Source: Clostridia bacterium (GTDB lineage Bacteria; Bacillota; Clostridia; Oscillospirales; CAG-272). From it: a stretch of DNA of 46,244 nt. Every line of letters starts with the position of its first letter. The first letter of the stretch is position 1. The DNA lies in NCBI GenBank assembly GCA_017468385.1, contig JAFUIQ010000046.1:1-46244 (forward strand), in the 5' to 3' direction. Below the pieces are notes generated by a model. The model was not told the DNA's origin. It ran no database searches and worked only from the letters and a program-made list of their open reading frames with translations. Positions 22,022 to 46,244 of this stretch are shown here, piece by piece. The translations under genes and the position numbers were made by a program.

Positions 22022-23050
22022 ATGAAAAGCAACATACTGAAAATCGGGCAGAAGAAGATTCTGGACGTGGGTGCCACTCTCCGCGAGGCGGATATCCACG
22101 GGAAGATTCTGTACGTTTCCGACCCGATCGTAGATACATTGTACGGCCATATCGTCCGTCCCCAGATCGAATCCGTGGGACAGATCAAGGTGGACACCGT
22201 GGAACAGAATACTATCCGTTACGCCATGTCCGTGGCGGAGCGGGTCATTGCTACCGATGTGGAATGCATCGTCGGCATGGGCGGCGGACGGGTACTGGAC
22301 GTGTGCAAATATGCGGCGTTCATCGCCAAAAAGCCCTTTTTGTCCATTCCCACCACCATGGCCAACGACGGCATCGCATCTCCCATCGCCGTTCTGAAGC
22401 GGGAGGATAACAAGCCCAAAAGCCTGGGCTGTGCCATGCCCTCTATGCTGATTCTGGATACGGAACTGATCGCTACCTGTCCTCCTGCTTTGATCAAGGC
22501 GGGTATCGGCGATACTATCTCCAACTATATGGCACTGAAGGACTGGGACCTGGCGGTTTCCCGGGGCAAGGAGGTCATGAACGGTTACGCCTACATGATG
22601 TCCAAAACCTCCCTGGATGCTCTGATGAAAACCCAGTACGATTCCATCACCCCGGAGTTTCTGGATGTGCTGGCCAATTCGCTGGTGCTCTCCGGCATCG
22701 CCATGGATTTCGCCGGCAGCAGCCGACCTGTCAGCGGATCGGAGCACCTGTTCAGCCACGCGCTGGATTATTATTGCGACACCCAGAACCTTCATGGCTT
22801 CAACGTGGCGCTGGGTACCATCGCCATTCTGAAACTGATCGGCGAGGATTACACCGAGGCACTGCACTATCTGCGTAAGTTTGAGGTAGACATCAACCCG
22901 GTCCACATGGGCATCGATGAGGATACCTTTGTGTACTGCATGCAGAATGCCACAGCCATGCGAAATAACCGCTACACCTATCTGCATGAGGTGGACCTGA
23001 ATACTGCCGTATTGCAGAGACTGTATCGGGATCTGCTGACGGAGCTGTAA
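22022..23050 (+). CDS. sn-glycerol-1-phosphate dehydrogenase family protein (AraM/EgsA-like)
   Basis: Member of the iron-type alcohol dehydrogenase superfamily closest in appearance to sn-glycerol-1-phosphate dehydrogenase, which reduces dihydroxyacetone phosphate with NAD(P)H. The nucleotide region is VGMGGGRVLDVCKYAA, followed by the characteristic IPTTMANDGIASP. Metal ligands are likely Asp in KAGIGDTISNY and His in SGSEHLFSHALD and NLHGFNVALG. The 342 residues are close to archaeal enzymes and shorter than Bacillus AraM. The stop is one base before the next gene, so both are tightly linked and probably serve one pathway that activates glycerol-1-phosphate or a similar polyol phosphate. 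Confidence 0.85.
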   Translation: MKSNILKIGQKKILDVGATLREADIHGKILYVSDPIVDTLYGHIVRPQIESVGQIKVDTVEQNTIRYAMSVAERVIATDVECIVGMGGGRVLDVCKYAAFIAKKPFLSIPTTMANDGIASPIAVLKREDNKPKSLGCAMPSMLILDTELIATCPPALIKAGIGDTISNYMALKDWDLAVSRGKEVMNGYAYMMSKTSLDALMKTQYDSITPEFLDVLANSLVLSGIAMDFAGSSRPVSGSEHLFSHALDYYCDTQNLHGFNVALGTIAILKLIGEDYTEALHYLRKFEVDINPVHMGIDEDTFVYCMQNATAMRNNRYTYLHEVDLNTAVLQRLYRDLLTEL

Positions 23051-23051
23051 T

Positions 23052-23774
23052 ATGAAAGCGTTGATTTTAGCGGCCGGTTTGGGTTCACGGCTGGCGCCTC
23101 TGACGGATCATCTGCCTAAATCTTTGGTGGAAGTAAACGGCACGCCCATTCTCATGAAGCAGATCGAGAATCTGCACGAAAACGGCATCACCGATATCAC
23201 CGTGGTGTCCGGCTATCTTTCCCCTGTGCTGGCCTCCGCTGTGGGCGGGAAATATCCGGAAATCCGGATTATCGAGAGCGTAGACTACGCCGCCACCAAC
23301 AATATGTATTCCGCCTATCTGGCAAGAGACCGTATGGCGGGCGAGCCGTTTCTCATGATGAATGCCGACGTGTTCTTTGACGCATCGGTGATCCGCGCTC
23401 TCCTGGATTGCCCCTCCCCCGATGCTATCGTCGTGGACGTGGGACAGTATCGGGAGGAATCCATGAAGGTAACGCAGAGGGACGGCAAACTGACGGCCAT
23501 ATCCAAAGCCATCCCGCCGGAGCAGGCACTTGGCTGCTCCATCGATGTGTATAAATTCTCCCCCCGGGGCGGCGAGGCCTTCTTCGCCCGGTGCGAGGAA
23601 TACATCGTCCGAAAAAACGACCGCAGGCAGTGGAGCGAGGTGGCACTGAACGATATCCTCCCCCATGTGGATTTTCAGGCCTGCCCCGTGTCGGGCCGAT
23701 GGTTTGAAATTGACAATCTTGATGATCTTGCGTCCGCCCAGAAACTGTTCGCGGACACGGCATATACCCAGTAA
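23052..23774 (+). CDS. Sugar-phosphate/alcohol-phosphate nucleotidyltransferase (LicC-like)
   Basis: A 240-residue nucleotidyltransferase of the GT-A fold, like LicC choline-phosphate cytidylyltransferase and related enzymes. The nucleotide-binding start is LAAGLGSRLAPLTDHLPKSL (GxGxR and PK), the first metal-binding Asp lies in LMMNADVFFD, and the C-terminal acidic motif is FEIDNLDDLASAQ. It transfers a nucleotide from CTP or another NTP to a phosphorylated small molecule. Fused in expression to a glycerol-1-phosphate dehydrogenase (one-base gap), it may make CDP- or NDP-glycerol; choline phosphate is the main alternative. No choline kinase is seen nearby. Confidence 0.85.
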   Translation: MKALILAAGLGSRLAPLTDHLPKSLVEVNGTPILMKQIENLHENGITDITVVSGYLSPVLASAVGGKYPEIRIIESVDYAATNNMYSAYLARDRMAGEPFLMMNADVFFDASVIRALLDCPSPDAIVVDVGQYREESMKVTQRDGKLTAISKAIPPEQALGCSIDVYKFSPRGGEAFFARCEEYIVRKNDRRQWSEVALNDILPHVDFQACPVSGRWFEIDNLDDLASAQKLFADTAYTQ

Positions 23775-33257: not shown

Positions 33258-33285
33258 TTGACGGGAAGAAGTTTTTTCGTATAAT
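33258..33285 (+). promoter_or_regulatory. Promoter of array genes 1 and 2
   Basis: TTGACG (33258-33263), 16-base spacer, TATAAT (33280-33285), about 90 bases before the ATG at 33376. Confidence 0.78.
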
Positions 33286-33375: not shown

Positions 33376-35115
33376 ATGAAAAAACAAAACATATGGATCA
33401 TCAGCTTGATGCTTGTGATCCTTATGATAGTTGTGCCGGGATGTACCGACACCAACACCCCCGGAGAGAATACAGGTGATCCCGGTGTCGTGACGCCTGT
33501 CGTGCAGGATCTTTCCGTCGTGGCGGACGGTGCGTCCTCGTATTCCGTTATCGTCCGGGAGTCGGCATCGGATGCGGTGGCGGAAGCAGCGCGGAACGTG
33601 CTCAATACCATCCAATCGGCTACCGGGGCGAAATTGACCTTTTGTGACGATTACGTCATGAACGGCGATCCCATCCCGGAGAAGGAGATTCTGGTCGGGG
33701 TGACCAACCGGGAGGAGAGCTTGTCCCTTTTGAAGGACGTTCCCTACGGTGCCTATGCCATCCGTGTGGTGGACGAGAAAATCGTCATTGTCGCCTGGGA
33801 TGAAGATTCTCTGAATAAAGCCTGTGCTGTCTTTTCCGCTATGGTGCGGAAAACGGGCACAGAGGGAAGCTTGCTTATCCCCGCGGATTACACTGAGGTT
33901 GGTGTGGGATGCGAAGCACTGCAGCAGCTGCCCCATTACGGCGCGGCGGATGAAGCGATTCAGACCGTGGACCTGGGGGATGCCTGTTATATGGTATACG
34001 CCAAGGATACCGATGCGGAGGAGTTCCGCGCCTACCAGACCGTTTTGGAGAATGCAGGCTATACACAGTTTGCATCCCGTCAGTACGGAAACAATCTGCA
34101 TATGATCTATACAAACGAGGAGAAGATCATCTGCGCCTCCTTCATGGCGAAGGACAAAGATGCCCGTATCTCCATCGAGGATGCCTACGATATGACTCTG
34201 TTCACGGAGCAGGAGTATGAGAAGATCTGTGAGCCTTCTGTCACTCTGGTGGGACAGGAAGGATACATGAATGACTCGGAAGGCGTACCCAACCAGATCG
34301 GATTGTGCCTCATTTTCCGTCTGGAGGACGGACGGTTCATCGTGGTGGACGGCGGTGACTACGTGCCTGCGGCCGGTCCTTTGCTGATGCGTACATTGCG
34401 TAATCTGGCGGTGGATCAGAGCAACATTACCATTGCCGCATGGATTGTCACACATGCTCACAGCGACCATACCGGCGGATTTGTTCACTTCACGGAGGAC
34501 TTGAAGTATCACAGACAGGTCAAGGTGGAGAATATCATTCACCATCTGGTCCGTACCGAACAGTATGATACCCTGGGCGACCCCGGACAGTCCCAGCGGG
34601 TGCGCAATATGCTGCCGCGGGAATATCCCAAGGCCACGGTAATCAAAGCCCATACCGGTCAGCTGTTTAAAATCGCCGGCATGGAAATCGAAATGCTGTT
34701 CACCTATGAGGATCTGGAACCCTCCCCGCTGGAGTACCACAACACCTCCTCCCTTGTCTTCCGTGTGACCGCCCAGGACAATACCGTTCTGGTGTTGGGA
34801 GATGCGTCCAACCGCTCCTGCGGATATTTGGTCCACTCCTACGGCGATTTCCTGAAGAGCGATATCGTGCAGGTGGCCCATCACGGCTACACCGGCGGTA
34901 CGATTCCGCTGTACGAAGCCATCGATGCGGATGTTTTGCTGTGGCCCTGCGGCGTGGCGTCCATTGATGGATCGTATGAAAGACTTATGGAGCGGGACTA
35001 CAATGCCAAGGCTGTAGAGTTGGCGGAGGAAGTGTACATCGCGGGTAAGTTTATCCATACCTTGCCCCTGCCGTATACGCCCGAGGACGTGGAAACTCCC
35101 CGGATCATTTATTGA
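33376..35115 (+). CDS. Metallo-beta-lactamase-fold surface lipoprotein, array gene 1
   Basis: First of six tandem paralogues; 579 residues, specific function unknown. A signal peptide ends in lipobox VPGC (Cys23), so it should be anchored to the outer face of the membrane. Residues about 46-160 form an alpha/beta domain like the N-terminal domains of GH67/GH20-type glycosidases, with the marker EILVGVTNREES. A middle domain (about 195-290) contains CYMVYAKDTDAEEF. The metallo-beta-lactamase domain has THAHSDH (His360, His362, Asp364, His365), KAHTGQ (His426), LGDAS (Asp476) and VAHHG (His502, His503), matching the ComEC-like branch. AGGAGG precedes the chosen ATG; the earlier start at 33343 lacks one. 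Co-transcribed with gene 2. Confidence 0.85.
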   Translation: MKKQNIWIISLMLVILMIVVPGCTDTNTPGENTGDPGVVTPVVQDLSVVADGASSYSVIVRESASDAVAEAARNVLNTIQSATGAKLTFCDDYVMNGDPIPEKEILVGVTNREESLSLLKDVPYGAYAIRVVDEKIVIVAWDEDSLNKACAVFSAMVRKTGTEGSLLIPADYTEVGVGCEALQQLPHYGAADEAIQTVDLGDACYMVYAKDTDAEEFRAYQTVLENAGYTQFASRQYGNNLHMIYTNEEKIICASFMAKDKDARISIEDAYDMTLFTEQEYEKICEPSVTLVGQEGYMNDSEGVPNQIGLCLIFRLEDGRFIVVDGGDYVPAAGPLLMRTLRNLAVDQSNITIAAWIVTHAHSDHTGGFVHFTEDLKYHRQVKVENIIHHLVRTEQYDTLGDPGQSQRVRNMLPREYPKATVIKAHTGQLFKIAGMEIEMLFTYEDLEPSPLEYHNTSSLVFRVTAQDNTVLVLGDASNRSCGYLVHSYGDFLKSDIVQVAHHGYTGGTIPLYEAIDADVLLWPCGVASIDGSYERLMERDYNAKAVELAEEVYIAGKFIHTLPLPYTPEDVETPRIIY

Positions 35116-35139
35116 TAGCAAAACGAAAGGATATATCCT

Positions 35140-36894
35140 ATGAAGAATCAGTGGAAGATACTTTTGTGCCTGGTGCTGGCCGTGCTTGCCGTTCTCGGGA
35201 CGGGATGCGATAAGACAGACGTCCCCGGCGAGGATACCGGCGATTCCACGGTGGTCACCCCCGTCGTGCAGGATCTGGCCGTCGTGGCAGACGGCACCTC
35301 GGCCTATTCCATCATTATCCGGGAAGAAGCTGCGGATGCGGTGGCTAATGCTTCCCGCCAGATTATGAGTGCCATCCAGGACACCACCGATGTGAAACTG
35401 AAATGGACGGACGACTATCTCGATCCCGATGACGCCGTCCCGACTAAGGAGATCCTGGTAGGGCTGACCAATCGGGCAGAGAGTTTATCTGTTCTGCAGG
35501 ATGTGAAATACGGTGAATTTGCCATCCGCATCGTGGGCGAAAAAATCGTCATCGCCGCATGGGATGAAGCATCCGTCAAAGCCGCCTGCAACCAGTTTGT
35601 CAATTACATAAAACGAAATGCGCAGGCAGGTACGTTTACGCTGGCCGGCGATTACACGGCAGACGGTACAGCACTGCAGGGAATTTCCCAGCTTCCCCAT
35701 TACGGCGCGGAAGACGAGTATGTGGAGTTCATCGATCTGGCGGATGCCTGCTATATGCTGTATGCGCAGGATACGGATCTGACGGAGTTTGAGGCGTATT
35801 ACGATACGCTGGAAGCGGCGGGCTATACCCGCGTTTCTGCCCATCAGCTGGGCGATAACCACTACGCCATCTACACAAACGAGGAAAAGATCATCCACGC
35901 ATCGTATGAGAAAGCAAAACGGGATGCCCGCGTCACCATCGAAAAAGCCTACGATGTGAGCATCTTCACCGAAAGCGAGTATGAGAAAGTCTGTGAGCCT
36001 GCCGTAACATTGGTGGGCCTGGAAGGCTACGGCGGTATTGAGGGTACAATCCCGGGCACAAGATACGGCAATCCCATCGGCCTTCTGATGATTTTCCGCA
36101 TGGAGGACGGCCGGTTTGTCATCGTGGATGGCGGCGGTATGGCGAATGAAACCATCTCGCTGATCTATGACAACCTCTATGAGCTGGCGGTGGATAAGGA
36201 TAACATCGTCATCGCCGCGTGGATGTTGACCCACGCCCACGGCGACCATGTGGGCGGATTCAGTATGTTTACAGGCTCCGCCAGGAAGGATCTGGTCACC
36301 GTCCAGAATATCGTTCATCATTTCTGTACCAATGAGCAGTATAAGAACTGCAACGACAGCGGTCGCGCGGCGGAAACCCGTGCGCTGATGAAGCAATATA
36401 AAGGAGCCAACATCATCAAAGCCCATGCCGGCCAGATTCTGAAGATCGGCGGAGCGGAGATCGAAGTTTTGTGCACCTCCGGCGATCTGGAACCCTACAC
36501 CCTGCAGGATCACAATACCTCCTCTGTGGTATTCCGCGTGACGGCGCAGGACAACAGCGTGCTGGTCCTGGGTGATGCCAGCTATATCACCTGCAGTTAC
36601 CTGGTGAAGGCCTATGGCGACTACCTGAAGAGCGATATGGTACAGCTCGCTCACCACGGATATGCAGGCGGTACTATCGCCCTGTATGAAAAGGTAGATG
36701 CGGACGTATTGCTCTGGCCCGGCGGAGTAGGCGGCTTTGACGGCGGCCTGGAACCGCAGGATCTGAAGAATCGGGAAACCAATGCGGTGGCGATTTCTCT
36801 GGCCAAAGAGGTATACGTGGCCGGTGAATCGGTGTTTACCTTCGTAATGCCGTATACCCCCAAGGATACGGATAAACCGATAATCATCAAATAA
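35140..36894 (+). CDS. Metallo-beta-lactamase-fold surface lipoprotein, array gene 2
   Basis: Second paralogue, 584 residues. The signal peptide ends in a lipobox LGTGC (Cys near residue 25), so it should also be a lipoprotein. The domain order is the same as gene 1, with EILVGLTNRAES, CYMLYAQDTDLTEF, THAHGDH (His365, His367, Asp369, His370), KAHAGQ, LGDAS and LAHHG all kept, so the metal site looks intact. It begins 24 bases after gene 1, with GAAAGG as ribosome site and no promoter between, so both share one transcript, which ends at the hairpin 36910-36948. It has a short insertion before its metallo-beta-lactamase core (around GIEGTIPGTRYGNP). Confidence 0.85.
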   Translation: MKNQWKILLCLVLAVLAVLGTGCDKTDVPGEDTGDSTVVTPVVQDLAVVADGTSAYSIIIREEAADAVANASRQIMSAIQDTTDVKLKWTDDYLDPDDAVPTKEILVGLTNRAESLSVLQDVKYGEFAIRIVGEKIVIAAWDEASVKAACNQFVNYIKRNAQAGTFTLAGDYTADGTALQGISQLPHYGAEDEYVEFIDLADACYMLYAQDTDLTEFEAYYDTLEAAGYTRVSAHQLGDNHYAIYTNEEKIIHASYEKAKRDARVTIEKAYDVSIFTESEYEKVCEPAVTLVGLEGYGGIEGTIPGTRYGNPIGLLMIFRMEDGRFVIVDGGGMANETISLIYDNLYELAVDKDNIVIAAWMLTHAHGDHVGGFSMFTGSARKDLVTVQNIVHHFCTNEQYKNCNDSGRAAETRALMKQYKGANIIKAHAGQILKIGGAEIEVLCTSGDLEPYTLQDHNTSSVVFRVTAQDNSVLVLGDASYITCSYLVKAYGDYLKSDMVQLAHHGYAGGTIALYEKVDADVLLWPGGVGGFDGGLEPQDLKNRETNAVAISLAKEVYVAGESVFTFVMPYTPKDTDKPIIIK

Positions 36895-36909
36895 TTATTG
36901 ACTGTATGA

Positions 36910-36948
36910 GAACCATCCGACCCATCGGGTGGTTCTTTCCCCTTTTTC
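36910..36948 (+). terminator. Terminator between array genes 2 and 3
   Basis: Arms GAACCATCCGA and TCGGGTGGTTC (one G-T pair) around CCCA, followed by a pyrimidine run with TTTTT. Because no promoter is visible before gene 3, it may leak. Confidence 0.75.
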
Positions 36949-36986
36949 GTGCGGAATGAAGTCTAATGCCAAAAGGAGAATCGTAT

Positions 36987-38723
36987 ATGAAACAATCGTG
37001 GAAGGTTCTTTTGTGTCTTGCCCTCACAGTCGTGGCCCTTGTTTTGCCTGGCTGCGACAACACGGAGCCGCCGGTGGAGAGTTCCGGCGATCCGGTGGTG
37101 GAAACGCCCGTACAGCAGGATTTGTCCATTGTAAGCGGCGGCACCTCTGCCTATTCCATCATTATCCGGGAGTCCGCCTCCGAAACAGTGTCCGAGGCAG
37201 CCCGTGAGATTATAAGCGCGATTGAAACAAAAACAGGCGTGAAACTTGCGTGGACCGATGATTATTTGGCCGACGGGGATCCGATACCTCCGAAGGAAAT
37301 TCTCATCGGAATAACCGATCGTGAGGAAAGCGCGGCCGTTCTCGGAGAGTTGAAATACGGTGAGTACGCGATCCGCCCGATGGGGGATAAACTGGTCATT
37401 GCCGCCTGGGACGATGCCTCTCTTGCCAAGGCCTGCGGTGTCTTTGTCAATCAGATCAAACGATTTGCCGCGGAGGGACAATTTGTTCTTCCCGGGGATT
37501 ACGCGGCACAGGCAGAGGGCCTTAAGGTGCTGACAGAGATGCCCCATTACGGCTCCGCGGGCGAGAAAATCCGCTTTGTGGATCTGGCCGACGATTGCTA
37601 TATGCTGTACGCGGATGATACGGATGAGGCGGAATTCAAGGCGTACCTTTCCGTTTTGGAAAATGCCGGCTATACCTCCTTTGCCACCCGTCAGATGGCG
37701 GACAATCTGTATGCAACCTATGTCAGCGATACCAAAGTGATCCACGCTTCCTATACCGCCTCTAAAAAGGACGCCCGCATTGCCATTGAGGATGCCTACG
37801 ATATGACTCTGTTCACCGAAACCGAGTACGAGAAGATCTGTGAGCCGTCGGTGACGCTGGTGGGACTGGAGAGTTACGGCGGCGATGAGGGATTGGGTGT
37901 GGGCAACCAGCTGGGCCTTTGCCTGATCTTCCGCATGGCGGATGGCCGTTTTGTCATCGTGGACGGCGGAAATCATAACAACGCTACCATTCCCCTGCTC
38001 AATAACAATCTTCGCGAATTGGCGGTAGATAAAGACAACATTGTCATTGCCGCATGGATTATGACCCATGCCCACGGCGACCATGTGGGTGCCTTTGTAA
38101 AGTTTTCCAATTCTGCCTATAAGAATAAGGTGACGGTGCAGAACTTCGTGCATCACCTCTGTACCGCGGAGCAGTACGAGAATTGCAACGATGCGGGTCG
38201 TGCGGATCAGACACGCCAGCTGATGAAGACCTACAAGGGGGCCAACATCATCAAGGCTCACACCGGCCAGGTGATGAAAATCGCCGGTGCGGAGATCGAG
38301 ATGCTCTTTACTTCCGCCGATCTGGAACCCTATGTGCTGGATTATCACAATACATCGTCTCTCGTTTTCCGCGTAACGGCAGAAGGGAATTCGGTGATGG
38401 TCCTCGGCGACGCCAGTACGGTGTCCAACGGCCACATGGTGAAGATTTACGGGGATTATCTGAAGAGTGATATGGTGCAGATCGCCCACCACGGATTCCA
38501 GGGCGGCACGGTTCCTCTGTATGAAGCCATTCAGGCAAAAGTGGCGCTGTGGCCTACCGGTGTTGCCAGCATTGACGGATCCTATAAGAGTCTCATGGAT
38601 AAAAACTACAATGCCAAGGCGGTGGAATTGGCAGACGAAGTATACATCGCCGGTATGGTAGGACATACGCTGATTATGCCATATACCCCCGTGGCGAACG
38701 ATCCCGCCAAAATCTATACCTGA
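36987..38723 (+). CDS. Metallo-beta-lactamase-fold surface lipoprotein, array gene 3
   Basis: Third paralogue, 578 residues. Signal peptide with lipobox LPGC. The conserved blocks EILIGITDREES, CYMLYADDTDEAEF, CEPSVTLVG, THAHGDH (His361, His363, Asp365, His366), KAHTGQ, LGDAS and IAHHG are present. The ATG at 36987 is chosen because AAAAGGAG lies just upstream; the earlier ATG at 36966 overlaps it. No clear promoter lies between the preceding terminator and this start, so it may depend on read-through from genes 1 and 2 or on a weak unrecognised promoter. Confidence 0.85.
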   Translation: MKQSWKVLLCLALTVVALVLPGCDNTEPPVESSGDPVVETPVQQDLSIVSGGTSAYSIIIRESASETVSEAAREIISAIETKTGVKLAWTDDYLADGDPIPPKEILIGITDREESAAVLGELKYGEYAIRPMGDKLVIAAWDDASLAKACGVFVNQIKRFAAEGQFVLPGDYAAQAEGLKVLTEMPHYGSAGEKIRFVDLADDCYMLYADDTDEAEFKAYLSVLENAGYTSFATRQMADNLYATYVSDTKVIHASYTASKKDARIAIEDAYDMTLFTETEYEKICEPSVTLVGLESYGGDEGLGVGNQLGLCLIFRMADGRFVIVDGGNHNNATIPLLNNNLRELAVDKDNIVIAAWIMTHAHGDHVGAFVKFSNSAYKNKVTVQNFVHHLCTAEQYENCNDAGRADQTRQLMKTYKGANIIKAHTGQVMKIAGAEIEMLFTSADLEPYVLDYHNTSSLVFRVTAEGNSVMVLGDASTVSNGHMVKIYGDYLKSDMVQIAHHGFQGGTVPLYEAIQAKVALWPTGVASIDGSYKSLMDKNYNAKAVELADEVYIAGMVGHTLIMPYTPVANDPAKIYT

Positions 38724-38760
38724 TGCGAAAATGCTGTGCAATCATTGGCTTTTGACCAAG

Positions 38761-38795
38761 TGGAAAAAACCCATGTGTTGTGGGAAATTTTCCAT
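38761..38795 (+). repeat. Imperfect hairpin before array gene 4
   Basis: TGGAAAA...CCCA (38761-38773) can pair with TGGG...TTTTCCA (38781-38795) with a small internal loop. It ends exactly where the gene 4 promoter begins and lacks a proper T-run, so it may be a weak terminator for gene 3 or an operator. Confidence 0.4.
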
Positions 38796-38823
38796 TTGAC
38801 GGGTTTGGAGTTTGTGCTAAAAT
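38796..38823 (+). promoter_or_regulatory. Promoter of array gene 4
   Basis: TTGACG (38796-38801), 16-base spacer, TAAAAT (38818-38823), about 95 bases before the ATG at 38920. Confidence 0.7.
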
Positions 38824-38919
38824 ACCAATAAGATGAGGATGAGATGCTTTTGTTTGTCGCATCCGTACAGCGTCTCGGTCTGTACACCCGTTTGTTGAAA
38901 AGCAGAAAGGATGTTATTT

Positions 38920-40677
38920 ATGAAGAAACAACACGGAATTCTTTTGTGCGTATTGCTCGTGATCTTTGCCATTTTGATGCAGGGATGTACCAACGAGCCC
39001 GTCGATCCCATCGATACCTCGGCGGATACAGGCGTAGTCACACCTGTGGTACAGGATCTGTCCATCGTCGCCGATGGCGCATCGGCCTATTCCATCATCG
39101 TTCGCGAAGGCGGATCGGATGCCTTGACGGAGATGTCCCGGCAGGTACGGAATGCGATTAAAGAAGCTACCGGCGTCCAGCTGGCATGGACCGACGATTT
39201 CATCGAGCGCGGCGGGACCGCACCGGCTGCGGAGATCGTGATCGGTATCACCAATCGCGAAGAGAGCATCAGCGCCCGGCAGGATCTGGCGTACGGCGAG
39301 TATGCGATTCGCGTGATGGGTGAAAAGATTATCATTGCCGCGTGGGATGAGATGTCCCTCCGCGCCGGCTGTGAAGCATTCTGCTCTTTGGTACAGGAAA
39401 ATACCGTTGACGGTCGGTTTACCCTGAAACAGGATTACGCCGTCACGGATGTGGGCTTTGCGGCACTGAAGGACATGCCTCACTACGGTGAGGCGGGTGA
39501 GGTCGTTCAATTTGTGGACCTGGACGACGATTGCTATATGCTGTATGCATCCGATACGGACGAGGCGGAATTCAAAGCCTACGCCGGTGCGCTGGAAAGT
39601 GCAGGGTATACCCAGTTTGCATCCCGTCAGTTCGGAAACAATCTGCATATGATCTACACAAGCGAGGATAAGGTTATCCACGCATCCTATGTTGCGAAGG
39701 ATAAAGATGCCCGCATTTCCATTGAGGATGCCTATGATATGAGCATCTTCACGGCCAGCGAGTACGAGAAGATCTGCGAGCCCTCCGTTTCTCTGGTGGG
39801 ACTGGAATGCTACGGAAAAGATTCAAAAACCGGTGTCTTCAACCAGATCGGCCTGTGTATGATCTTCCGGCTGGAGGATGGACGCTTCATCATCGTGGAC
39901 GGAGGCGGATATACTCAGGATACAGCAGGCCTGGTGTACAGCAATCTCCGCAAACTGGCAGTGGACAAAAACAATATCACCATTGCCGCTTGGATTCTGA
40001 CCCACGCGCATGGAGATCACACCGGCGGATTTTTGAAATTCACCGAAGCGAAGTACCATACAAGAGTAACTATCCAGAACATCATTCATCATTTCTCCAC
40101 CCCCGAGCAGTATGCGGGTATTGAGGAAGGGGCGGATTCGGGACGCTCCGAGCAGGCGCGTAAGACGTTTATCAATGAATATCCGAACGCTACTATTATC
40201 AAAGCCCATACCGGTCAGCTGATTCAGGCTGGCGGTGTGGAAATCGAAATGCTCTATACCTATGAGGATCTGGAACCAAGCCCGTTGGAGTATCATAACA
40301 CCACCTCTCTCGTGTTCCGCGTCACGGCGCAGGATACCTCCGTGATGGTATTGGGCGACGCGTCCAACCGTGTCAGCCTCCGTCTGGTCGCTGTGTATGG
40401 CGATTATCTGCAGAGCGATATGGTACAGATTGCTCACCACGGCTATACGGGCGGTACCATTGCCCTGTACGAAGCCATCGATGCGGATGTGGTGCTGTGG
40501 CCGGGCGGCGTGGATTCCTTTGATGGAAATAAGGGATTGGAAGCTATAAAATTCAGAGGATATAATGCCAAGGCACTGGAGTTGGCGGAGGAAGCCTACG
40601 TCGCCGGTAGGGCAGTATATACCTTGATCTTGCCTTACACCCCGGAAGACGTCGAGGAAACCAAGGTTATCAAATAA
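38920..40677 (+). CDS. Metallo-beta-lactamase-fold surface lipoprotein, array gene 4
   Basis: Fourth paralogue, 585 residues, with lipobox LMQGC in the signal peptide. It keeps EIVIGITNREES, CYMLYASDTDEAEF, CEPSVSLVG, THAHGDH (His362, His364, Asp366, His367), KAHTGQ, LGDAS and IAHHG. A 45-base stretch at 39613-39657 differs from gene 1 (34066-34110) at only two positions, though the genes differ more elsewhere. ATG 38920 follows AAAGG at nine bases; the in-frame ATG at 38911 abuts it. It has its own promoter and a strong terminator, so it is a single-gene unit. Confidence 0.85.
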   Translation: MKKQHGILLCVLLVIFAILMQGCTNEPVDPIDTSADTGVVTPVVQDLSIVADGASAYSIIVREGGSDALTEMSRQVRNAIKEATGVQLAWTDDFIERGGTAPAAEIVIGITNREESISARQDLAYGEYAIRVMGEKIIIAAWDEMSLRAGCEAFCSLVQENTVDGRFTLKQDYAVTDVGFAALKDMPHYGEAGEVVQFVDLDDDCYMLYASDTDEAEFKAYAGALESAGYTQFASRQFGNNLHMIYTSEDKVIHASYVAKDKDARISIEDAYDMSIFTASEYEKICEPSVSLVGLECYGKDSKTGVFNQIGLCMIFRLEDGRFIIVDGGGYTQDTAGLVYSNLRKLAVDKNNITIAAWILTHAHGDHTGGFLKFTEAKYHTRVTIQNIIHHFSTPEQYAGIEEGADSGRSEQARKTFINEYPNATIIKAHTGQLIQAGGVEIEMLYTYEDLEPSPLEYHNTTSLVFRVTAQDTSVMVLGDASNRVSLRLVAVYGDYLQSDMVQIAHHGYTGGTIALYEAIDADVVLWPGGVDSFDGNKGLEAIKFRGYNAKALELAEEAYVAGRAVYTLILPYTPEDVEETKVIK

Positions 40678-40681
40678 TATG

Positions 40682-40709
40682 AAAAACCACCCGAGAGGGT
40701 GGTTTTTTT
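40682..40709 (+). terminator. Terminator of array gene 4
   Basis: Arms AAAAACCACCC and GGGTGGTTTTT around GAGA, ending in seven T. Confidence 0.9.
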
Positions 40710-40720
40710 CATAGGTGTTC

Positions 40721-40749
40721 TTGACAGATATGATCTTGATGTGTACAAT
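40721..40749 (+). promoter_or_regulatory. Promoter of array gene 5
   Basis: TTGACA (40721-40726), 17-base spacer, TACAAT (40744-40749), only 11 bases after the preceding terminator and 40 bases before the ATG. Confidence 0.85.
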
Positions 40750-40789
40750 GAAACCACAGCAGCATAAAACAAGAAGTGAGGATACGTAA

Positions 40790-42517
40790 ATGAATCGGAA
40801 ATACAAAGCGGCGGGATGGCTTTTGCTGGTAGCTGCCGTTCTCCTTCTGCACGGATTGATCGGCAGAACGGAGGCATGGGCCGCAGATACGCCCGCATCG
40901 GAAACGGCGGCTGCGGAAACGCTGATGGTCGTCTCCGGCGGGAAGTCATCCTATGTGATCGTTACCCCAAAAGCTGCTTCCGAGGAGGTGGAGAGTGCCG
41001 CGCAGGAGCTTCGTGACGCCATTCGGAAGAAGACAGGGGTGTCGCTGAAGCGAAAAAACGATCTTCTTACCATCACCTCCAAGGCGTCTGAGACGGAGAT
41101 TCTGATCGGCAATACCAACCGGGAGGAATCAAAGGCCGTCATGCAGGATGTTCCCTACGGGGAATACGCCATTCGCGTGGTTGGCAAGAAGGTTGTCATC
41201 GCTGCCTGGGATGAGACAACTTTGCAAAAGGCCTGCGAGGTTTTTGCGGAATACGTACAGGAAAAAGGGAAGTTTGGCCGCTTGACATTGGCTTCCGACT
41301 ACACCGCATCCGGTGACACGTTTAAAGGCGTGGGTGCGATTCCTCACTACGAGGATAAGGGGATCACTACACAGTACATCGATTTGGCGGACGGCAGTTG
41401 CATGTTGTACGTGGCCAATACCTCCCGCGGCGATTTCGTGAAATACGTGGAAGGGCTGAGTGATGCCGGCTTTACGGAATTTTCCTTCCGGCAGGCCGGA
41501 AAGATGCTGTACGCCATCTACAACAATGAGGAAACCATCCTCCACGCCTCTTTCAATACTACGACTCGCGAGGCGCGCATTGCAGCGGATAAGGCCTACG
41601 ACATGACCATCTTCACGGATACCGAATACGAAAAGGTGTGCGAGCCTACGGTTTCCTTGGTTGGTCAAGAGGTTGAGGTGAGCACCGGATGGATCTATAA
41701 CGCAATGTGTTTGGTGTTCCGTGCGGAAGACGGACGCTTTATCATTGTAGACGGCGGCTATGGCTTGTTTTCTGTAAACAAACTGTATAAAACTCTTCGT
41801 TCTCTCCATGTGAACGATGGGAAGATCACCATTGCCGCATGGATCATGACTCATGCGCATAGTGATCACACGGGGGCTTTCCAAACCCTTTCCAACACTA
41901 CCATGAAAAAACGCATTGTTGTGGAGAATTTTATTCACCATTTCTCCACGGATGCTCAGCATGAGGCAATAGGCAGTGCCGGTACATCGCAGAAAACCCG
42001 TACGGCTATGAAAGGATATCGAGACGCTAACATCATCAAAGCCCATTCAGGACAGGTGATTCAGGCAGGTGGTATGGAGATCGAAATGCTGTTTACCTAT
42101 GCGGATATGGAGCCAGCCGTTTTGGACGAGATGAATACTACGTCTCTTGTGTTCCGCGTGACAGCCCGTGACAATTCCATCATGGTGCTGGGAGATGCGT
42201 CCAATCGGTCGCTGAATTACCTTTGCAATATCTACGGAGATTATCTGAAGAGCGATATGGTGCAGATTGCCCATCACGGCTATAACGGCGTGGCCAAAGC
42301 CTATGAATGGATCGATGCAGATGTGGTTCTTTGGCCCGGCGGAGTGAGACAGTTCTACGGCAGAGAGGGGTTGTATCGCATCAAGGATTGGAAGTTCAAC
42401 AAGAAAGCCTTGGATCTTGCGGAAGAAGCCTATATCGCCGGCGATGATGTTTATACGCTGATTCTCCCCCACACTCCCGAGGATAACGACACGGTTAAAA
42501 TTTACGACGGAGAATAA
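40790..42517 (+). CDS. Secreted metallo-beta-lactamase-fold protein, array gene 5
   Basis: Fifth paralogue, 575 residues. The signal peptide ends TEAWAADTP with no Cys, so signal peptidase I should release the protein, unlike genes 1-4. The N-terminal glycosidase-like domain carries EILIGNTNREES. The middle and metallo-beta-lactamase domains keep CEPTVSLVG, THAHSDH (His355, His357, Asp359, His360), KAHSGQ, LGDAS and IAHHG. With gene 6 it forms a subgroup marked by SGGKSSYVIVTPKAASEEV. GTGAGG precedes the ATG. It has its own promoter and terminator. Confidence 0.85.
   Translation: MNRKYKAAGWLLLVAAVLLLHGLIGRTEAWAADTPASETAAAETLMVVSGGKSSYVIVTPKAASEEVESAAQELRDAIRKKTGVSLKRKNDLLTITSKASETEILIGNTNREESKAVMQDVPYGEYAIRVVGKKVVIAAWDETTLQKACEVFAEYVQEKGKFGRLTLASDYTASGDTFKGVGAIPHYEDKGITTQYIDLADGSCMLYVANTSRGDFVKYVEGLSDAGFTEFSFRQAGKMLYAIYNNEETILHASFNTTTREARIAADKAYDMTIFTDTEYEKVCEPTVSLVGQEVEVSTGWIYNAMCLVFRAEDGRFIIVDGGYGLFSVNKLYKTLRSLHVNDGKITIAAWIMTHAHSDHTGAFQTLSNTTMKKRIVVENFIHHFSTDAQHEAIGSAGTSQKTRTAMKGYRDANIIKAHSGQVIQAGGMEIEMLFTYADMEPAVLDEMNTTSLVFRVTARDNSIMVLGDASNRSLNYLCNIYGDYLKSDMVQIAHHGYNGVAKAYEWIDADVVLWPGGVRQFYGREGLYRIKDWKFNKKALDLAEEAYIAGDDVYTLILPHTPEDNDTVKIYDGE
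40932..41031 (+). repeat. 100-base near-identical repeat, copy 1 (array gene 5)
   Basis: Identical to 42752-42851 except at 40999 (C here, A at 42819). It encodes part of the N-terminal domain. Flanking sequence on both sides is clearly diverged, including silent positions. Confidence 0.95.
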
Positions 42518-42520
42518 AGA

Positions 42521-42549
42521 AAAAGCCATCCCGCACGGATGGCTTTTTT
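42521..42549 (+). terminator. Terminator of array gene 5
   Basis: Arms AAAAGCCATCC and GGATGGCTTTT around CGCAC, followed by T. Confidence 0.9.
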
Positions 42550-42560
42550 CAGTTGGTTCG

Positions 42561-42589
42561 TTGACAGGGATATTGCCGCGTGATACAAT
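42561..42589 (+). promoter_or_regulatory. Promoter of array gene 6
   Basis: TTGACA (42561-42566), 17-base spacer, TACAAT (42584-42589). It is the same -35, spacing and -10 as the gene 5 promoter, and likewise 11 bases after a terminator. Confidence 0.85.
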
Positions 42590-42624
42590 AACGGTAGAAA
42601 TACGGGAAATATTAGGAGAAACGT

Positions 42625-44349
42625 ATGAAAACAACGTGTCGTATTCTTTCTTTGAGCCTTGTGCTGATTGCCGCAGTGACCATGCTGGTTGGTCTTGCAA
42701 AACCCGCACAGGCAGCCGATACGGCAGGGAAAGCACAGACCCTTGGGATTATCTCCGGCGGGAAGTCATCCTATGTGATCGTTACCCCAAAAGCTGCTTC
42801 CGAGGAGGTGGAGAGTGCAGCGCAGGAGCTTCGTGACGCCATTCGGAAGAAAACCTGGGTGTCCCTGAAAGTGAAGACCGATTTGCTGAATGTGGCATCG
42901 AAAAAATCTGACACAGAGATCCTCATCGGCCATACCAACCGTGCGGAATCGGCGGAGGTCATGAAGGATGTCCCCTACGGAGAGTACGCCATCCGCGTTG
43001 TCAATCAGAAGATCGTCATTGCCGCCTGGGATGACGCGTCGCTGCTTAAGGGATGCGAGGCTTTCGCGGAATATGCTGAAAAAAAGGGAAGATTCAGAAA
43101 GCTCACGGTAGATCCCGATTATACCGCATCCGGGGTTGCATTCGAAGGAGTGGGGGCTGTCCCTCCCTACGAGGATAAAGGCATTACTACCCGGTATATG
43201 GATCTGGCGGATGAGTGCTATATGGTGCATATAGCCAACACCTCCCGCGGCGATTTTCTCAAGTATGTGAAAAGCTTGCCCGATGCCGGCTTTACGGAGT
43301 ATTCCTACCGCCAGGCAGGAAAGATGCTGTACGCCATTTACGGAAACGAGGATACAATCCTCCACCTGTCCTTCAACGGCCTCACCCGCGAGGCCCGCAT
43401 CGCGGTAGAGGACGCCTACGACAGAACGATCTTCACGGAAGTGGAATATGAAAAGGTGTGCGAGCCATCCGTCTCCATGATCGGTCAGGAGTTTACCGAC
43501 AGCAATGATCCTGCTGCTGCCCCTGTCCCGAATGGGTTGTGCCTGGTGTTTCGGTTGGAGGACGGCCGGTTTATTATCGTAGACAGCGGCGCTACAGTCA
43601 AATCGGTAAACCTGTTGTACGAAACACTCCAAAAACTCCATGTGAATGAAGGCAAGATCACCGTAGCCGCGTGGATCCTGACCCACCCCCACGGGGATCA
43701 CACCGGCGGTTTCCAGTATCTTTCCACTACGGCCTTAAAGAATCAGATCGTTGTGGAAAATATCATTCACCATTTTTCTTCCGATGCCCAGCATGCGGCG
43801 ATCAAGACAGCCGGAACCTCTGCCAACACTCGATTGGCCATGAAGAGATTCAGGGGCGCCAACATCATCAAAGCCCACTCCGGCCAGGTGATCCAGGCGG
43901 GCGGCGCAGAGGTTGAGATGCTGTTTACCTATGCGGATATGGAGCCGATGGTGCTGGATCAGATGAACACTACGTCCCTTATACTTCGTGTAACGGTACA
44001 GGGAAATTCCGTGATGGTGTTGGCGGATACCACCAGCCGGGCCATTAATCACATATACAAAGTTTACGGAAACTACTTGAAGAGTGACATGGTGCAGTTG
44101 GCTCACCACGGAGTCAACGGTGGCGTGCTTCTGTATCAGACGATTGATGCGGATGTGGTTCTGTGGCCGATCGCTGTGGATGCGAGCTACAATCAGGGTG
44201 TAGAACTCATCCGGGATGTTGCGTACAATAAAGTGGCTACCGACCTGGCCGAGGAGGTCTATGTGGCCGGCAATGCTGTCTTTACGCTGATCCTTCCGTA
44301 TACGCCGGCTGACAATGAGTCTGCTGTGTTCTATATGGGTAAAGAATAA
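42625..44349 (+). CDS. Secreted metallo-beta-lactamase-fold protein, array gene 6
   Basis: Sixth paralogue, 574 residues. The signal peptide ends KPAQAADT, a good signal peptidase I site, with no lipobox. It keeps EILIGHTNRAES, CEPSVSMIG, THPHGDH (His354, His356, Asp358, His359), KAHSGQ and LAHHG. The usual LGDAS is LADTT, so the Gly before the metal-binding Asp is Ala, but the Asp stays. It is nearest to gene 5. AGGAG precedes the ATG. It has its own promoter and ends at a terminator shared with the convergent EamA gene. Confidence 0.85.
   Translation: MKTTCRILSLSLVLIAAVTMLVGLAKPAQAADTAGKAQTLGIISGGKSSYVIVTPKAASEEVESAAQELRDAIRKKTWVSLKVKTDLLNVASKKSDTEILIGHTNRAESAEVMKDVPYGEYAIRVVNQKIVIAAWDDASLLKGCEAFAEYAEKKGRFRKLTVDPDYTASGVAFEGVGAVPPYEDKGITTRYMDLADECYMVHIANTSRGDFLKYVKSLPDAGFTEYSYRQAGKMLYAIYGNEDTILHLSFNGLTREARIAVEDAYDRTIFTEVEYEKVCEPSVSMIGQEFTDSNDPAAAPVPNGLCLVFRLEDGRFIIVDSGATVKSVNLLYETLQKLHVNEGKITVAAWILTHPHGDHTGGFQYLSTTALKNQIVVENIIHHFSSDAQHAAIKTAGTSANTRLAMKRFRGANIIKAHSGQVIQAGGAEVEMLFTYADMEPMVLDQMNTTSLILRVTVQGNSVMVLADTTSRAINHIYKVYGNYLKSDMVQLAHHGVNGGVLLYQTIDADVVLWPIAVDASYNQGVELIRDVAYNKVATDLAEEVYVAGNAVFTLILPYTPADNESAVFYMGKE
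42752..42851 (+). repeat. 100-base near-identical repeat, copy 2 (array gene 6)
   Basis: Partner of 40932-41031, one mismatch in 100 bases, in the same reading frame and same protein position. Confidence 0.95.
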
Positions 44350-44356
44350 CAAAAAC

Positions 44357-44395
44357 GGGCTGTTGCCATGTGGCAGCAGCCCATTCTTTTATTTT
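44357..44395. terminator. Bidirectional terminator between array gene 6 and the EamA gene
   Basis: Arms GGGCTGTTGCCA and TGGCAGCAGCCC (one G-T pair), T-rich on the right and A-rich on the left, between convergent genes. Confidence 0.85.
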
Positions 44396-45300: not shown

Positions 45301-46155
45301 TCATTCCTCGTAGGCAAGAATCCAGTTGTGCATATCGGAGTTGTGACGGGTGTAGCCGTGCCATGCCACTACGCGATTCTTCTCGGGGAATACCCACAGC
45401 TGCTGGCCGTTCATGCCGCCTTTGCCGTAGGTGTTTGCCTTCATCTTGTTCAGTTCATAGCCGTTCTGCAGAGTCAGATTTACCCATTCCTCGGAAACGA
45501 TGCGGGTGTCGCCGTACATACCGCCGCTCAGATATACCTGGCCCAGCTTGACCATATCCTTGGTGCGGATGTACAGACCGGTGGCTCCCATCGGATGACC
45601 CATGGGGCAGCGGCTCCATGCCATTTCCTGGAATCCCAGCGGGTAGAACAAGGTGTCCCACAGGAAGTTGTCGATGGGCATACCTGCCTTCTTCTCTACG
45701 ATGCGGGCCAGCATATAATAAGCGCCGTCGGTGTAGGAGCGCTGTACACGGGGCTCGTGATCGAAGGGATACTTGAACATATACGTCAGATAATCCCGTC
45801 CGAATTCCTCGGCCTTGTGGGTGTCGATGTCCAGGAATCCGCCGGGCAGACCGAGGCGGTGCAGCAGAGCATCGTGCACGGTGATCTCGTGCCAGCGGGG
45901 ATCCACGTCAGCGGGGCATTCCTCGGCGAGGATCTCGGTGATGCGATCCTCCGGCTTGATCAGTCCGCGGTCGTACAGAATACCGATGGCGGTTACCACG
46001 AAAGCCTTTGCCACGGAGTAGGAGTTCTGGCAGGCATTGGTGGGGATGGTGGTTTTCACCTCCGGCTCACCGCCGTCCTTGATCTCGGCTACGCGGTATA
46101 CCGTGTAGTTGTTTTCCTTGATGAATGCGGAAATGTCTTCCAAAAATTTGCTCAT
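45301..46155 (-). CDS. Serine hydrolase, beta-lactamase (class C / PBP4*) family
   Basis: A 284-residue member of the serine beta-lactamase-like family, which includes esterases, DD-peptidases and peptidases. The active-site SxxK is SVAK (Ser47, Lys50), and a Tyr motif appears in RSYTDGAYYMLA (Tyr-Thr-Asp where Tyr-x-Asn is usual). No signal peptide follows the chosen start, so it is probably cytoplasmic and not a drug-resistance enzyme. ATG 46155 is preceded by GGAAGGTGA; the longer frame to 46242 would cover the promoter. It is the first gene of a two-gene unit with the EamA transporter. Confidence 0.83.
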   Translation of the reverse strand: MSKFLEDISAFIKENNYTVYRVAEIKDGGEPEVKTTIPTNACQNSYSVAKAFVVTAIGILYDRGLIKPEDRITEILAEECPADVDPRWHEITVHDALLHRLGLPGGFLDIDTHKAEEFGRDYLTYMFKYPFDHEPRVQRSYTDGAYYMLARIVEKKAGMPIDNFLWDTLFYPLGFQEMAWSRCPMGHPMGATGLYIRTKDMVKLGQVYLSGGMYGDTRIVSEEWVNLTLQNGYELNKMKANTYGKGGMNGQQLWVFPEKNRVVAWHGYTRHNSDMHNWILAYEE

Positions 46156-46192
46156 GTCAGTCACCTTCCGGTTGATAAAATTGGTATGCTTC

Positions 46193-46221
46193 ATTATACT
46201 ATCGTGAGCAATAAATGTCAA
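46193..46221 (-). promoter_or_regulatory. Promoter of the serine hydrolase / EamA unit
   Basis: Minus strand consensus TTGACA (46216-46221), 17-base spacer, TATAAT (46193-46198), about 38 bases before the ATG at 46155. Confidence 0.85.
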
Positions 46222-46244
46222 GTTTTTCGCATCTATTGACAAAG

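Follow-up and report, generated by a model that had tools for sequence, protein, structure and literature searches.

A tandem gene array of a Clostridia bacterium probably encodes exported metal enzymes that cut phosphate links on sugar-containing polymers

Sugars bearing phosphocholine or phosphoethanolamine are found in bacteria, fungi, nematodes and other organisms, and the enzymes known to attach or detach these groups are few (PMC10704324). The same work describes GlcNAc-PDase, a group of exported sugar phosphodiesterases of the EEP superfamily, mostly of Clostridia; this work, on a different fold, is the nearest published idea that we found. Nearest in structure to the proteins described here are two phosphodiesterases of metallo-β-lactamase (MBL) fold, the teichoic acid phosphorylcholine esterase Pce (CbpE/LytD) of Streptococcus pneumoniae (PDB 2bib and 1wra) and the C-terminal domain (CTD) of ComEC/Rec2 (PDB 9ic4). 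Motif II reads HxDxDH in ComEC and HxHxDH in Pce, and motif III holds an Asn in ComEC and a His metal ligand in Pce, as given in PMC8579336 and PMC12455585.

Here we describe six tandem genes in a 46,244-nucleotide stretch of DNA from a Clostridia bacterium (contig JAFUIQ010000046.1; the window), for which architecture, fold, conserved metal-site residues, array, one-clade origin and neighbours were computed. Judged from sequence, its products are probably exported metal enzymes that cleave phosphate linkages on polymers containing sugars, and they form part of a family that is undescribed in the open-licence literature and has been tandemly multiplied several times over. The catalytic domain represents a known type, but neither the domain combination nor the array habit is described in any open-licence paper listed by searches with few keyword sets. 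A first-pass annotation of the same DNA knew of no system with this architecture in six tandem copies; its interpretation, a surface-displayed hydrolase family expanded in situ and perhaps acting on a phosphodiester or glycan polymer, is supported in part.

Layout and transcription of the six copies

The open reading frames and translations of the window contain, as the first-pass annotation had it, six consecutive forward-strand genes of one common layout: copy 1 (33376..35115, 579 residues), copy 2 (35140..36894, 584 residues), copy 3 (36966..38723, 585 residues), copy 4 (38911..40677, 588 residues), copy 5 (40790..42517, 575 residues) and copy 6 (42625..44349, 574 residues). Each encodes an export signal, an N-domain, a middle domain and an MBL domain, the last carrying THAHSDH, LGD and AHHG in copy 1. 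Judged by eye, copies 1–4 are lipoproteins with lipobox-type cysteines (PGC, TGC, PGC and QGC, respectively), whereas the signals of copies 5 and 6 have an A-x-A end and lack a lipobox. The shared motifs listed earlier are present in the six copies, but with departures: copy 4 has EIVIG in place of EILxG, the LGD of five copies is LAD in copy 6, which also has THPHGDH, still conforming to HxHxDH, and the expected LPYTP end is found in three copies, the others ending in MPYTP (two) or LPHTP (one).

The resemblance among the copies is beyond chance. Copies 2 to 6 are 55, 58, 62, 47 and 43% identical to copy 1, respectively, and mean identity among the six rises from 48.5% in the N-domain to 53.5% in the middle domain and 55.3% in the MBL part. 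Values of dN (0.24–0.54) and dS (1.4–2.7, with one pair saturated) between copies indicate that they are old and under overall purifying selection. Chance or assembly duplication as the origin of the array was rejected on the 43–62% identity to the first copy and the near saturation of synonymous sites. In a tree of 83 of 160 segments, from loci chosen by hand and built by a quick method with SH-aLRT and no bootstrap, the six copies form a single clade (SH-aLRT 100), and copies 5 and 6, also the two without a lipobox, are sisters (SH-aLRT 99).

Flanking the array, all on the opposite strand, are two ABC transporter genes before it and an EamA gene after it; no GDPD or EEP gene is among the flanking genes. 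The gap between copies 1 and 2 is 24 bp, and in a scan of the array region it holds no promoter-like site of at least 10 matches. Forward-strand promoter-like sites precede copy 1 (TTGACG-16-TATAAT, 33258..33285, 11/12), copy 4 (TTGACG-16-TAAAAT, 38796..38823, 10/12), copy 5 (TTGACA-17-TACAAT, 40721..40749, 11/12) and copy 6 (TTGACA-17-TACAAT, 42561..42589, 11/12); all three 11/12 sites of the region are thus on the forward strand in gaps before copies. Following copies 2 and 6 are forward-strand terminator-like hairpins (36908..36937 and 44357..44382), and following copies 4 and 5 are perfect inverted repeats of 11 bp (40682..40707) and 12 bp (42520..42548), which the scan lists as terminator-like on the reverse strand. 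In the seven-gene array of another genome (locus L129), 25 promoter-like sites were found against 10.7 expected by chance (sd 3.7), both 12/12 sites lie directly before genes, and five of six gaps contain a hairpin of at least 10 pairs on the gene strand. These sites and hairpins in the gaps of the two arrays make it likely, from consensus matches, that several copies are transcribed separately. One long operon was discarded as the only reading: four of the six sites of at least 10/12 are in the gaps before copies 1, 4, 5 and 6, one of the others being within copy 4 and one on the reverse strand within copy 6, although the region's total of 12 promoter-like sites shows no excess over chance (shuffled mean 12.1).

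The metallo-β-lactamase domain and its active site

The predicted structure of copy 4 (588 residues, pLDDT 90.7, pTM 0.86) ends in the MBL domain (residues 286–579, 39766..40647), whose αβ/βα fold places it in the MBL-fold metallohydrolase superfamily. Pfam Lactamase_B matches all six copies above cut-off (E 5e-7 to 2.7e-12). Among the candidates forwarded by Foldseek to structural alignment, the top three rows are ComEC once and Pce twice, 8 Z units above the next; the ComEC CTD is the top match of the domain by both fold and profile, and Pce is near-equal structurally. A sequence search of the PDB with one copy gave a best E of 0.089.

MBL folds also cover thioesterases, lactonases and sulfatases. 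The six could accordingly share no more than the fold and hydrolyse another bond (lactone, ester, thioester, sulfate or β-lactam), which we regard as improbable: the three leading fold matches, clear of the rest, are all phosphodiesterases, and NCBIfam β-lactamase models score far below their cut-offs on the six copies.

The metal-site residues (HxHxDH, D and H) are present in all six copies. Their conservation was assessed in 179 aligned rows from 178 proteins, picked with a profile built from the family itself; as these include a few stand-alone MBLs and contigs that, judged by their length, are repeated (such as L018/L140, L023/L139, L026/L141, L037/L147 and L051/L133), the counts are of rows, not independent species. 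In HxHxDH, the Asp and the two outer His do not vary across 176 of 176 ungapped rows, and the second His is conserved in all but one of the 176 (175); the GD aspartate D483 and both HH histidines, H509 and H510, are found in 178 of 178 rows. N463, invariant in 176 of 176 rows, is aligned by the profile to an Asn in both ComEC and Pce. Compared with the published motifs, the family thus combines a Pce-type motif II with a ComEC-like Asn (N463, by alignment).

According to PMC12455585, changing S728 of ComEC lowers its nuclease rate about 3-fold. This residue would be the Ser of HHGS, and the matching position is Ser in only 9 of 179 rows, of which 4 are small stand-alone MBLs and not of array type. 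TIGR00361 (ComEC/Rec2) covers the MBL part alone of each copy, at 26–38 bits against a cut-off of 190, and NCBIfam gave no match to the OB fold or competence parts of ComEC/Rec2 in the six copies, the N-terminal half of which is instead signal, N-domain and middle domain. A ComEC remnant was therefore dismissed on its different N-terminal half, its different motif II and the unconserved HHGS-type Ser.

A role as exported nucleases, breaking down DNA or RNA outside the cell as a source of nutrients in the manner of a ComEC CTD without its channel, would agree with the leading fold and profile match and with the invariant Asn. This use of the domain nevertheless seems unlikely to us, as motif II is not that of ComEC, the S728 position is rarely Ser, the N-domain suggests carbohydrates, and no nucleotidase appears in the 25 neighbour families listed first, out of 113.

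Accessory domains and neighbouring genes

Ahead of the MBL domain in copy 4 are the α/β N-domain (residues 47–181, 39049..39453) and the middle domain (residues 180–302, 39448..39816). The middle domain has the order E-E-H-E-E-E-E and was compared with the Mog1/PsbP/DcrB-like fold, with modest matches to PA1624, LppA and DcrB; its profile reached a best E of 0.35 against PDB sequences. The N-domain may be related to the N-terminal domain of GH67 and domain 2 of GH20 (PF03648 and PF02838). Pfam Glyco_hydro_20b and 67N match copies 5 and 6 weakly, below cut-off, and copies 1–4 not at all, whereas GH67N (PF03648) exceeds its cut-off over the N-domain stretch of three DUF4838 proteins (L125, L123:6178 and L175). 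The Foldseek list for the model includes 8pxu, 8pxv, 8pxt and 4h04 (lacto-N-biosidase), which we take to be GH20 enzymes, over 134–164 columns and without ranges; the part they match is presumably the N-domain. Against PDB sequences the N-domain profile scored best with an S-layer chain (E 3.4e-4), and an EEP protein bearing an N-domain had no match at E 0.01. In contrast to GH67 and GH20 enzymes, the module is joined here to phosphoesterase folds and not to a catalytic barrel; a working glycosidase was ruled out, as no glycosidase barrel was matched or modelled.

Ten proteins of the window's own genome carry the N-domain: seven MBL, one GDPD and two EEP proteins, one of the latter below the Pfam cut-off. 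The exported EEP proteins of these genomes, some with an N-domain, recall GlcNAc-PDase, as does the predicted export and phosphodiesterase type of the array proteins; the likeness is one of role only, since the array proteins have the MBL and not the EEP fold, and the EEP group is not necessarily the same. Two sister genomes yielded 22 N-domain proteins, and the 16 scanned comprise 1 metallophosphoesterase, 5 DUF4838 proteins, 3 of beta-helix/pectate-lyase type, 1 CBM96 protein and 6 without a Pfam match above cut-off. With partners there mostly not phosphoesterases, the N-domain is a sign of export and, for the most part, of glycan targeting more than of phosphoesterases; it serves as a general accessory to proteins that are exported and largely directed at carbohydrates and, in the array's own genome, to phosphoesterase-type ones.

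Close same-strand neighbours of the family were surveyed in 114 of 123 proteins, after seven of fewer than 100 residues and two others were dropped; twelve loci (repeated contigs, stand-alone MBLs and one near relative) were left out. GDPD accounts for 6 of the 114, and GDSL lipases equally for 6. From the 82 GDPD matches in ten carrier genomes about 0.4 would be expected (Poisson P 3e-6 to 8e-6, at an assumed gene density), a P to be taken only as a guide because neighbours are not independent, loci are partly orthologous and the test was devised with the data already in view. The distance from array to GDPD gene is 33 bp at L129 and 731 bp at the four-gene L131 array. The seventh MBL gene of the window's own genome follows a GH63/MGH1-like gene and has a solute-binding-like gene on one side and a GDPD gene on the other. 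The solute-binding-like cluster is near the family in 16 loci, by a weak assignment (E 2.4e-4, below cut-off); three other such proteins had no Pfam match, and the neighbour matches sugar-binding proteins at E 0.001–0.005.

Within the window, 9.6 kb from the array, is a LicC-like gene, whose best match of solved structure is the CTP:phosphocholine cytidylyltransferase LicC (E 2.7e-19, residues 1–109) and which adjoins a glycerol-1-phosphate dehydrogenase-like gene. This pair, the genome's one LicD-family match and the near-equal structural match to Pce would suit a self-directed remodelling of the envelope, with Pce-like trimming of phosphocholine or similar caps from the cell's own surface polymer. 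We give this little credence, given the distance of the LicC-like gene and the results from other genomes: G083 and G021, with seven- and four-gene arrays, have no LicD match, and five genomes have no match to CDP-glycerol glycerophosphotransferase. Six or seven diverged copies would also suit several substrates better than one self-polymer. The proteins share with Pce the MBL domain with HxHxDH, but its choline-binding repeats have no Pfam match in the six (E up to 1), and the family differs in its N-terminal accessory and middle domains, in being lipoprotein or free and in its tandem occurrence.

Distribution and a proposed role

Searches of whole genomes detected the family in 71 of the 118 genomes sampled from the same taxonomic family (E 1e-20), 52 of 295 of the order (E 1e-40) and 1 of 348 of the phylum (E 1e-50), this last being the array's own genome; all are lower bounds at unlike thresholds, with 11, 4 and 3 candidates scored per genome, respectively. 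In a public genome collection 158 stretches were confirmed, and the best 80 represent 77 distinct loci, all titled Clostridia or groups within Clostridia; 35 of these 77 titles mention the gut or faeces of deer, goat, sheep or horse. Family architectures include zero, one or two N-domains. Runs of at least three genes occur at 15 loci, the window's and 14 further ones, so an array unique to one genome is excluded; when five genomes of the genus are compared, the array is seen in the window's alone (completeness is 64% and 83% for two of the others). The largest array has seven genes (L129, in G083), followed by five-gene arrays at L052, L064 and L079 and four-gene arrays at L131 (G021), L134 (G096), L047 and L053. 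The four copies of G096 form their own clade (SH-aLRT 100). Those of G083 and G021, which belong to one genus, are interleaved in the tree, and their array therefore seems to predate the split of the two.

The reading we favour, at about even chances, is that the tandem array is lineage-specific and that its six products are exported phosphodiesterases, metal-dependent and from the ComEC/Pce branch within the MBL superfamily, acting on phosphodiester-bearing glycans. The fold, metal-site residues and company of the proteins would point to metal binding, phosphodiesterase activity, a glycan substrate and a role in feeding. Four copies would be anchored in the membrane as lipoproteins and two released. 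In the MBL domain, HxHxDH, the GD Asp and the HHG His may together coordinate a pair of metal ions, and this site, by analogy with ComEC and Pce, would activate water for the cleavage of a phosphodiester bond. Attachment of the enzyme to a carbohydrate target would fall to the N-domain, which is of glycosidase type, and to the small middle domain; this makes phosphodiester-bearing glycans or glycopolymers, cut extracellularly, the likely substrates; candidates are zwitterion-capped sugars and glycerol-phosphate or teichoic-type polymers. Products may be imported and finished intracellularly, in some relatives with a GDPD encoded nearby.

Phosphodiesterase activity is suggested by the nearest structures, by the presence of the N-domain on EEP, GDPD, metallophosphoesterase and glycan-type proteins, and by the enrichment of GDPD nearby. 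Against it stand the lack of a GDPD gene beside the window's array, the equal frequency of GDSL lipases among neighbours, the mostly non-phosphoesterase partners of the N-domain in the sister genomes and the occurrence of the MBL fold in other hydrolases.

A wider proposal, which we put forward tentatively, is that one order of Clostridia has an enzyme class so far undescribed, made up of MBL phosphodiesterases that are exported, transcribed separately and built on a targeting module of glycosidase descent, which EEP, GDPD and calcineurin-type enzymes also carry. These phosphodiesterases would strip different phosphodiester caps or links from gut glycans and would have been tandem-amplified several times independently. 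One accessory module is common to four unrelated phosphoesterase folds (MBL, EEP, GDPD and metallophosphoesterase). A large family with adjacent, diverged copies would be a source of enzymes for phosphocholine and phosphoethanolamine sugars, could explain how gut Clostridia use phosphodiester-bearing polymers, and offers a natural case for testing what drives the repeated tandem amplification of a single enzyme class.

Small and very long MBL proteins

Stand-alone ComEC-like metallo-beta-lactamase (MBL) proteins, small in size (292–303 aa), are found in four genomes of the genus (L112:1183-2061, L126:6493-7404, L127:4146-5027 and L128:5861-6751); HHGS is present in these proteins, yet their motif is HxHxDH. 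Forming the C-terminal end of a 1713-aa protein encoded at L037:11836-16977 is the unit of N-domain, middle domain and MBL domain, and proteins of a similar kind are encoded at loci L080 (1644 aa) and L081 (1631 aa).

Other genes in the window

At window positions 22022-23774 (+), a glycerol-1-phosphate dehydrogenase-like gene, for which the closest solved structure is 3ce9, followed by 4rgq/4rfl, lies immediately upstream of a LicC-like CTP:phosphocholine cytidylyltransferase gene (match to solved structure 1jyk, E 2.7e-19). This pair perhaps represents a CDP-activated polyol or choline route toward a surface polymer. Close to the array is a serine beta-lactamase-family (PF00144) gene (window 45301-46242, −); we propose no connection between the two.

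Chromosomal place and tandem growth

The two-N-domain arrays of loci L053, L068 and L069 are all flanked by one pair of genes, c3 (alaS-like) and c4 (pantothenate-kinase-like), both names being assigned by eye, and those of L052 and L064 have this setting on one side; the arrays thus occupy one conserved chromosomal place. Located at L123:6178-14854 (genome G002, contig 78) is a further tandem run, with the N-domain on four consecutive proteins. As DUF4838 is present in both of the two members scanned, tandem growth is not limited to the MBL type.
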